Below, in pieces: positions 4,505-43,936 of a stretch of 64,000 nt of DNA. The notes beneath the pieces are model-generated. The model was not told where the DNA came from. It saw only the letters and a list, made by a program, of their open reading frames with translations, and made no database searches. Positions within the stretch are counted from its first letter, which is position 1; each line of letters opens with the position of its first letter. Source of the DNA: Pseudomonadota bacterium (lineage in GTDB: Bacteria; Pseudomonadota; Alphaproteobacteria; Micropepsales; Micropepsaceae); assembly GCA_021851325.1 (NCBI GenBank), contig JAJZDZ010000010.1, forward strand, positions 1 to 64,000, given 5' to 3'. The position numbers and the translations under genes were made by a program.

Positions 4505-4601
4505 ATCCGACTATAGCAAGCCCGCCGCAGTCTTGCGCGCGCCTGCTGCAGCCATTTGTTGTGGAGTAAGTGTCCCCTTGAGGGGCGCTGCGCGATGAGA
4601 G

Positions 4602-4693
4602 CCCGGCCACGACCCGAAGCGGATTCGTTACGGCTGCTTCCTTCCGGACCTGACCGGGTTGGCGATGGCTTCGCCCGCGACCGGACTCCCGGG
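4602..4693 (-). ncRNA. ffs: Bacterial signal recognition particle RNA (4.5S-like); boundaries approximate
   Basis: Minus strand contains the SRP core AACCCGGTCAGGTCCGGAAGGAAGCAGCCGTAACGA with flanking complementary arms (CCGGTCGCGGGCGAA / TTCGGGTCGTGGCCGGG), just upstream of dnaX. Confidence 0.92.
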
Positions 4694-29592: not shown

Positions 29593-30282
29593 ATGCGGGT
29601 TCCGTGCACACAGGGGCCGCTTGCCGACGGGCAAAAGGTCTTCACCAAAGACGGCCGGCCCCAGTATGGTGCACGCCAGATGCGCTCCCTGACAGATATT
29701 CTCTATAATTTTCACTGGATCGTGCCCGGCGAGGCCGCGCGTGCTGCCCAGGCCTATGGCGGCGGGCTCGGCCCGTTTCTGCGTCGCCACGGGATTCGCA
29801 CCGTGATCAATCTGCGCGGTGCCAACCCCGACTGGCGCTGGTGGCATTATGAGCGCCGCGCCTGCACCCGCGAAGGCGTCGTTCATGTCGATGTTATGCT
29901 CTCGAGCAAACATCTGCCGGCGCGGGCCATGCTGCTGGAACTGCTTGCGGCCTTTGCCCACAATCCCAGGCCATTGCTGCTCAAATGCTCGGGCGGTCAG
30001 GATCGCACCAGCCTCGCCGCCGCTCTTTTCATCCTTTACCATGAGGGCTGGCAGGGCGAGGCCGCCGCACTCGCCCAGTTTGCGCGCTGGCCCTATCTGC
30101 ACCTGCCCAAGCCCTACCAGCGCTGGCTGCGTCTCTTCGTTGTCTATGCCAAGGAGGCAGGGCAGGGCCGTGACCTCACCAGCTTCTTGCAGCAGGACTA
30201 CACGGCCACCGCGTTTCAGGCCTGGCTTGACGGCCGCGGCGAGCGCAGCGCCTACCGCAATGTTTATCGCGAGGCCTCCTAA
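29593..30282 (+). CDS. Tyrosine/dual-specificity protein phosphatase-like protein
   Basis: CX5R active-site motif [58 protein letters not shown]; start may be 29680. Confidence 0.75.
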
Positions 30283-30366
30283 AGCGTATTCTGGATCGCA
30301 CCAGCAAGAGCTGTGGCTGCATCATCGCCGCCATGGCAGCAGGTCTGGACCACCGCAGCAAGACCG

Positions 30367-30984
30367 ATGCAATTACCCAACGCCCTTCCCATCGCTCAAG
30401 GTGTCCGCCTCTGGCCACAGGCGCTCAACCCCGCGCAGCAGTCCGAATTGCTGGAGGTTGTGCTGTCCACCACAGCGCAAGCTCCGTTCCTGCGGCCGAC
30501 GATGCCGCGCACCGGCACACCCTTTACGGTAACGCAGACCAATTTCGGCACTCTCGGCTGGGTCTCTGATGCCCAAGGCTACCGCTACCAGGCCCATCAT
30601 CCGGTAACCGGCCAACCCTGGCCACCCATCCCCTCGCTCTTGCTCAGGCTCTGGCACGCGGCCCTGCCTGATGCCCCGGATCCGCACTGCTGCCTCGTCA
30701 ACCATTATCGGGACGGCGCGCGCATGGGACTGCATCAGGACCGCGACGAGACCGCCCTCGACGTCCCCGTTCTTTCCATAAGCCTTGGCGCAGACGCGCT
30801 GTTTCGCCTTGGCGGCACGAGCCGGAAAAGTCCGACCCAAAGCCTGAAGCTGCGCTCCGGTGATCTTCTGGTCTTTGGCGGCGCGGCGCGGCTCGCCTTT
30901 CACGGGATCGACCGCATCCTCGCGGGCAGCTCCGATCTCGTTCCTGGGGGAGGGCGCATCAATCTGACCTTGCGCCGGGTCTGA
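30367..30984 (+). CDS. alkB: AlkB-type Fe(II)/2-oxoglutarate-dependent dioxygenase
   Basis: CLVNHYRDGARMGLHQDRDETALDVPVLSISLGADALFRLGGTSR...LRSGDLLVFGGAARLAFHGIDRI...GGRINLTLRRV (HxD...H, RxNLTxR). Confidence 0.93.
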   Translation: MQLPNALPIAQGVRLWPQALNPAQQSELLEVVLSTTAQAPFLRPTMPRTGTPFTVTQTNFGTLGWVSDAQGYRYQAHHPVTGQPWPPIPSLLLRLWHAALPDAPDPHCCLVNHYRDGARMGLHQDRDETALDVPVLSISLGADALFRLGGTSRKSPTQSLKLRSGDLLVFGGAARLAFHGIDRILAGSSDLVPGGGRINLTLRRV

Positions 30985-30992
30985 CCAGTGGC

Positions 30993-31027
30993 AAAAAAAG
31001 ACGCCCGGTCAGGGGAATGACCGGGCG
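30993..31027 (-). terminator. Strong Rho-independent terminator
   Basis: Minus-strand CGCCCGGTCA-TTCCCC-TGACCGGGCG (10-bp perfect stem), then C and seven T. Confidence 0.88.
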
Positions 31028-31177
31028 CCATGCGCCGTTACGCGCCGGTGTCGGGAGGGGATGACCGACACCTCGAGAAGGGCTCCATCCAGCTTGCGAG
31101 CGGGGGGGCAGTGCCTGCTGGATAGTGTCGTCGCCCGTCTCAGGTACTTACCTATGCAACGAGGCAACAGTTTTCAA
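30993..31177 (-). ncRNA. Candidate small RNA (or grxD 3'UTR-derived RNA) with C-rich hairpin loops
   Basis: Minus-strand promoter-like TTTGTA-16-TATAGA (31211-31184), hairpins ATCCAGC/GCTGGAT (CCCCCCC in loop), GGTGTCGG/CCGACACC (UCAUCCCCUC loop), terminator hairpin with UUCCCC loop. Confidence 0.42.
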
Positions 31178-31268
31178 GTATTTTCTATATACCATGACGT
31201 AATGATACAAATTTAATGGACAGTTGCCAATATGATACATTTTGTTGGCAACAATCAATGCATCACGT

Positions 31269-31601
31269 CTAGGCAGCAGGCTGACAGGCAATGCCCTTTT
31301 CCGCCAGGAACGGGGCAAGTTCGTCGCTTTCGTACATTTCACGCAAAATGTCCGAACCGCCGACAAATTCACCTTTGACATAAAGCTGCGGAATGGTCGG
31401 CCAGTTGGAGAAGTCCTTGATACCCTGACGCACGTCCGGGTCTTTCAGCACGTCCACCGCCTTAAACTTGACCCCCAGGCTGGAGAGGATCTGCACCGCG
31501 ACCGAAGAAAATCCACACTGCGGAAAAACGGGCGTGCCCTTCATATAAAGCACGACGTCATTTTCTGCGATTTCCTTGGTGATCTGATCACGCACGCTCA
31601 T
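31269..31601 (-). CDS. grxD: Monothiol glutaredoxin, Grx4 family
   Basis: VVLYMKGTPVFPQCGFSSVAVQILSSLGVKFKAVDVLKDPDVRQGIKDFSNWPTIPQLYVKGEFVGGSDILREMYESDEL (CGFS). Confidence 0.97.
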   Translation of the reverse strand: MSVRDQITKEIAENDVVLYMKGTPVFPQCGFSSVAVQILSSLGVKFKAVDVLKDPDVRQGIKDFSNWPTIPQLYVKGEFVGGSDILREMYESDELAPFLAEKGIACQPAA

Positions 31602-43862: not shown

Positions 43863-43936
43863 CGCGCCCGAAAGGATTCGAACCTCTGACCCCCAGATTC
43901 GTAGTCTGGTGCTCTATCCAGCTGAGCTACGGGCGC
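43863..43936 (-). tRNA. tRNA-Arg (anticodon ACG); CCA not encoded
   Basis: Minus strand GCGCCCGTAGCTCAGCTGGATAGAGCACCAGACTACGAATCTGGGGGTCAGAGGTTCGAATCCTTTCGGGCGC; anticodon loop CTACGAA; acceptor stem GCGCCCG/CGGGCGC. Confidence 0.96.

Follow-up and report, generated by a model that had tools for sequence, protein, structure and literature searches.

A predicted RusT-like small RNA with two C-rich hairpin loops between grxD and alkB in a Rhizomicrobium genome

The gap between grxD and alkB in a 64,000-nucleotide (nt) stretch of alphaproteobacterial DNA (contig JAJZDZ010000010.1, positions 1 to 64,000, Micropepsaceae; hereafter the window) carries on its minus strand what is, by its sequence, a real small RNA (sRNA) gene, complete from promoter to terminator. 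We propose, with a probability of roughly 0.78, that its product is the Rhizomicrobium representative of an old family of alphaproteobacterial sRNAs to which Caulobacter RusT also belongs, and that it acts in the manner set out below. The comparisons show a promoter and a terminator of its own, four stem-loops that covary or are invariant, C-rich loops that hardly vary, and a linkage to lolA in many lineages.

Fold and conservation of the RNA gene

An earlier note on this DNA had described three hairpins and a T-run in the gap, all of which are present, but had missed a fourth, small hairpin, so that the minus strand holds four hairpins and a T-run (Table 1). In stem-loop 1 the stem TATCCAGC/GCTGGATG pairs 31124-31117 with 31093-31086, and the loop, of which the 19 nt GCACTGCCCCCCCGCTCGC at 31114-31096 are near-invariant, includes a CCCCCCC run with a mean unpaired probability of 0.86. 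The stem of stem-loop 2, GGTGTCGG/CCGACACC, pairs 31072-31065 with 31054-31047 and presents the loop UCAUCCCCUC (mean unpaired probability 1.00). The terminator was also correctly read earlier in its loop and seven T, but its stem (31029-31018 paired with 31011-31000) has 12 bp and not 10. Measured against shuffled sequences, the fold has z = -4.2 over 206 nt and z = -5.25 for the 150-nt transcript; none of 200 shuffles was as stable. A small protein as the product was rejected: no reading frame is conserved, two of the three contain stops, and the indels among homologues do not come in threes.

In blastn comparisons with relatives, the conserved block extends from approximately 31186 to 30991 and ends at the terminator. 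In an alignment of 35 homologues 96.6% of the cells pair, and 20 of the 32 pairs have changed on both sides, a level of covariation reached by none of 500 shuffles; registers slid along the alignment pair in only 35-41%. The loops GCACUGCCCCCCCGCUCGC and AUCCCCUCC are invariant or nearly so, with ATCCCCTCC in loop 2 identical in all 35 sequences, whereas the stems change with compensation. Stems drifting without such compensation would have spoken against an RNA; their behaviour favours one, and the earlier suggestion of a discrete, trans-acting type of sRNA gene with exposed C-rich loops resembling an anti-Shine-Dalgarno (anti-SD) sequence is supported at the level of sequence.

To search genomes we used R1, a covariance model of the window RNA family, which matches the window at 31129-30993 with 146.4 bits. 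Within the order, one strong copy was found in 92 of 96 genomes, in 59 of the 60 good ones and in all seven genera, and a few genomes had a second, weak match. Both C loops are kept in other families (L153-L168). No family in Rfam 15 matched the RNA at either gathering or permissive thresholds. Further RNAs (L169, L172, L178, L191, L192 and L193), the majority of which lie close to lolA, have a GGUUCCCCUGCC-type hairpin loop, a short GGAGC hairpin and a terminator with a C loop; these probably form a divergent branch of the same sRNA family in other alphaproteobacterial orders, including Thalassospira (L193).

Relationship to Caulobacter RusT

RusT (CCNA_R0199) of Caulobacter crescentus is a 118-nt RNA transcribed between lolA and xth that folds into four stem-loops, the loop of stem-loop 2 being its genetically supported seed, and binds Hfq near stem-loop 3; it is controlled by NtrX, is induced by iron starvation or zinc and, with Hfq, represses TonB-dependent receptors under iron stress (PMC11005374, Vogt et al. 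2024). We tie the window RNA to RusT because of a chain of gene orders, a fold of four hairpins and the loop UCAUCCCCUCCC of stem-loop 2. Outside the order many R1 matches lie downstream of lolA: we checked 28 genomes of the class, 26 of which had an R1 match, and in 18 of these 26 it followed lolA on the same strand at a distance of no more than 3 kb. Rhizomicrobium electricum DSM 21034 (L045, G490) has an RNA that agrees in coordinates and score with the one in G076, a genome marked as congeneric with the window, and the window is therefore placed in Rhizomicrobium. In R. electricum lolA is directly upstream of the RNA, the order being lolA-RNA-PTPase-like gene, and at six loci lolA, the RNA and alkB occur together (L021, L026, L028/L152, L029, L159 and L189). 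The chain thus runs from lolA-RNA in the class through lolA-RNA-alkB in Rhizomicrobium to grxD-RNA-alkB in the window. In addition, the window gene at 29593-30282 (plus strand), which adjoins alkB, is 46% identical to the gene beside the RNA in R. electricum (L429). Given the lolA linkage, the loci that join lolA, RNA and alkB and this shared gene, the RNA appears to have lain at lolA ancestrally, with an exchange of the upstream side in the lineage of the window.

The three Caulobacteraceae genomes compared (family f63) were recognized by their Hfq, whose identity to that of C. crescentus (structure 6gwk) is 84-96%; another family, f121, was ruled out by its Hfq. In each of the three an RNA lies downstream of lolA, its second hairpin carrying CAUCCCCUCCC, UCAUCCCCUUCCC or UCAUCCCCCUCCC, and it is the best same-strand R1 match at each locus (25.3, 29.6 and 21.3 bits respectively); the predicted folds have four stem-loops in two cases and three in the third. 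A further R1 match in a Caulobacteraceae genome (G447), at 31 bits, was a false positive produced by the terminator of rpmG, and weak R1 matches were therefore accepted only with lolA linkage. Such low scores (21-30 bits for the lolA-linked loci), a terminator-driven match that exceeds them, the difference in length (118 nt in RusT and approximately 150 nt here) and the frequency of C-rich loops among sRNAs at large would all suit an independent family, non-homologous to RusT, that had come by its C-rich anti-SD loops and GC-rich terminator through convergence. We regard this as unlikely, in view of the lolA linkage shared through a chain of intermediates, the identical order of four hairpins and the identical letters of loop 2.

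Homology with RusT is therefore the preferred reading. The window RNA resembles RusT in the lolA linkage of its relatives, in having four stem-loops of which the last is an intrinsic terminator, in its conserved stem-loop-2 loop, in the presence of hfq and ntrX in the genome and in having TonB-dependent receptors as predicted targets. It differs in its greater length, in a long stem-loop 1 with a 19-nt, near-invariant loop containing seven C residues (C7), in its move from lolA to the grxD-alkB gap and in its promoter sequence. We infer that stem-loop 1 has been enlarged to carry the C7 loop. RusT homologues have been reported only in Caulobacteraceae (PMC11005374), so both the class-wide spread and the second, 19-nt C-rich loop are new.

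Other known sRNAs share parts of this design. The CcsR-type and rhizobial parallels drawn in the earlier note point to the wrong family, as the CCUCCUCCC motif of the CcsR/NfeR1 type is absent from the window RNA, which matches nothing in Rfam; RusT is the best-supported relative (PMC11005374). The alphaR8/MmgR/SisA-D RNAs likewise combine an anti-SD-like seed with a terminator and are wide in Alphaproteobacteria, but their seed UUUCCUCCCU is single-stranded after a weak hairpin and they lie beside an N-formylglutamate amidohydrolase gene (PMC12559287); the UUUCCUCCCU core is absent from the window transcript sequence. Rfam family ar7 (RF02342) has a similar C-rich loop, AUCCCCCUCUCC, in a hairpin ahead of its terminator, but it was rejected, with 17.4 bits where its gathering score is 60 and with its few weak matches in the class lying elsewhere than those of R1. 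Also rejected were 6C RNA (RF01066), whose hairpin loops of at least six C are alike but whose model has two hairpins (20.3 bits; gathering cut-off 47), and anti-hemB (20.1 bits; gathering cut-off 49.5). The EcfG/sigma-T promoter consensus is GGAAC-N16/17-CGTT. Caulobacter GsrN, which like the window RNA exposes a C-rich loop and pairs it with G-rich mRNA sites, is transcribed from an EcfG/sigma-T promoter (PMC5869019), whereas the window RNA has TTG[AC]AA-N17-TAnnnT, which does not fit sigma-T.

Predicted targets and mechanism

The genome of the window encodes hfq and hflX, preceded by an ntrYX-like pair (NtrX scored 749.7 bits against a family cut-off of 600), and 24 TonB-dependent receptors. 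Target predictions were made on parts of three genomes, namely its own, that of R. electricum and a distant one (G217), with start codons picked, in receptors and background alike, by one type of simple Shine-Dalgarno (SD) rule. In its own genome GGGGG occurs within 20 nt before the start in 13/24 receptors compared with 28/508 other genes (p = 7e-10), and GGAGG in 4/24 compared with 42/508. The same G-run is frequent in G217 (9/18 receptors compared with 12/201, p = 3e-6), and the signal is weak in R. electricum (GGGG, 11/29 compared with 32/170, p = 0.03; GGGGG, 5/29 compared with 13/170, p = 0.15); GGAGG is also enriched before receptor starts in these two genomes. SD sequences of GGGG-GGGGGG are far commoner in the receptor genes of its own genome and of G217 (L274-L297 and L360-L388) than in other genes.

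At least six contiguous pairs with loop 2 were found at the starts of 10/24 receptors and 50/509 other genes in its own genome (p = 9e-5), 17/29 and 28/170 in R. electricum (p = 5e-6) and 11/18 and 20/201 in G217 (p = 1e-6), making such matches about four to six times as frequent at receptor starts as in other genes. At least six pairs with the 16S anti-SD were not enriched at receptor starts in any of the three genomes; by mean match length the anti-SD was mildly raised in R. electricum and G217. Rhizobium populisoli, taken as a negative control for receptor starts, gave four start calls, none of them convincing.

The RNA probably acts through its loop 2, which, helped by Hfq, would pair with G-rich ribosome-binding sites of receptor mRNAs and so block translation. 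The RNA would be transcribed from its own promoter, and Hfq, by analogy with RusT, whose Hfq footprint lies at the position matching stem-loop 3 of the window RNA (PMC11005374), would load near that hairpin and the U-tail. Loop 2, and possibly loop 1 too, would then pair with the G-rich SD regions of outer-membrane receptor mRNAs, those of TonB-dependent receptors above all, so that ribosome entry is blocked and less receptor is made. As is reported for RusT, such repression would probably set in during iron or envelope stress and be controlled by NtrYX.

Several points weigh against this reading. In sequence the RNA resembles Caulobacteraceae RusT only weakly outside loop 2 and the terminator, the comparison having been made with Caulobacteraceae relatives and not with the C. 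crescentus RusT sequence itself, and the window copy sits at grxD-alkB and not at lolA. Permuted loop-2 letters equalled the observed enrichment in 10 of 300 permutations by the six-pair fraction and in 20 of 300 by mean length; C-richness, that is composition, therefore carries most of the target signal, and the order of the loop letters matters modestly. Loop 1 as a receptor seed gave no consistent target enrichment in the three genomes. The lack of a consistent mRNA signal for this loop, and a constraint over 19 nt that exceeds what an anti-SD seed requires, would fit C-rich loops whose main role is to bind a protein or to sponge other RNAs and not to pair with mRNA, and there is a precedent in the Caulobacter sRNA CrfA, which sponges other sRNAs (PMC12559287). 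We consider this improbable as the main function, and somewhat more so than independent convergence, as the loop-2 target signal recurs in three genomes and the RusT seed is supported genetically (PMC11005374).

The evidence describes a two-loop variant of the RusT kind, and a RusT kind that is widespread in Alphaproteobacteria. RusT has been known from one model organism and described only in Caulobacteraceae, and the present evidence places it in many alphaproteobacterial families, with a covariance model, a loop-level pattern of conservation and a simple, testable rule, namely that the G-run ribosome-binding sites of TonB-receptor mRNAs can be covered by a C-rich loop. If this is true, Alphaproteobacteria would have in this RNA a general switch for nutrient uptake at the outer membrane. 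More tentatively, and with somewhat less than even confidence, we suggest an ancient, class-wide RusT superfamily in which TonB-receptor genes keep G-run SD sequences, so that one C-rich sRNA can silence the whole repertoire, and to which the Rhizomicrobium branch added the second, 19-nt C-rich loop with a partner of its own.

Promoter and gene neighbourhood

The aligned homologues share the promoter arrangement TTG[AC]AA-N17-TAnnnT, the second box ending in A and not T in the window and its nearest relative. The TTTGTA-16-TATAGA promoter proposed earlier falls outside the conserved block, and the homologues do not share it. In 33 of 38 homologues an element made up of CTGTC[AC] and then an A/T run is kept approximately 35 nt ahead of the -35 box; it is possibly the site of a regulator.

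Whereas alkB adjoins the RNA in most members of the genus, grxD does so only in the window and its nearest relative and is, from the gene orders, a lineage-specific neighbour outside the RNA unit; the link to grxD or bolA made in the earlier note is accordingly unsupported, the conserved partners being alkB downstream and, ancestrally, lolA upstream. That the RNA is processed from the grxD transcript as a product of its 3' untranslated region, an option raised in the same note, is very improbable, since, although the RNA follows grxD on the same strand, the upstream gene varies in nearly all relatives while the RNA and its promoter stay.

Table 1. Features of the sRNA locus, in window coordinates
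Feature	Position	Strand	Basis or remark
Predicted sRNA, RusT-like, ~150 nt	30993..31142	-	R1 match; 3' end from terminator; 5' end inferred from conserved -10
Stem-loop 1	31086..31124	-	8/8 stem pairs covary
Stem-loop 2	31047..31072	-	5/8 pairs covary; predicted seed loop TCATCCCCTC at 31064-31055
Stem-loop 3, GCGC-GTAACG-GCGC	31032..31045	-	Near-invariant in 35 homologues
Stem-loop 4, intrinsic terminator	30993..31029	-	C-rich loop TTCCCC, T7
Core promoter, TTGAAA (31177-31172), N17, TAGGTA (31154-31149)	31149..31177	-	Conserved in aligned homologues
Upstream element, CTGTCC-ATTAAAT	31211..31223	-	Consensus CTGTCA..TTTAAAAA
alkB, convergent neighbour	30313..30984	+	NCBIfam AlkB, below cut-off
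grxD (monothiol glutaredoxin), upstream neighbour	31269..31601	-	TIGR00365, above cut-off

The gene beside alkB (29593-30282) had no match in NCBIfam; a gene in the equivalent position elsewhere (L137) resembles DSP-PTPase families weakly. In the window, Rfam matched only a bacterial small SRP RNA (4595-4689, minus strand) and a tRNA (43863-43936, minus strand).
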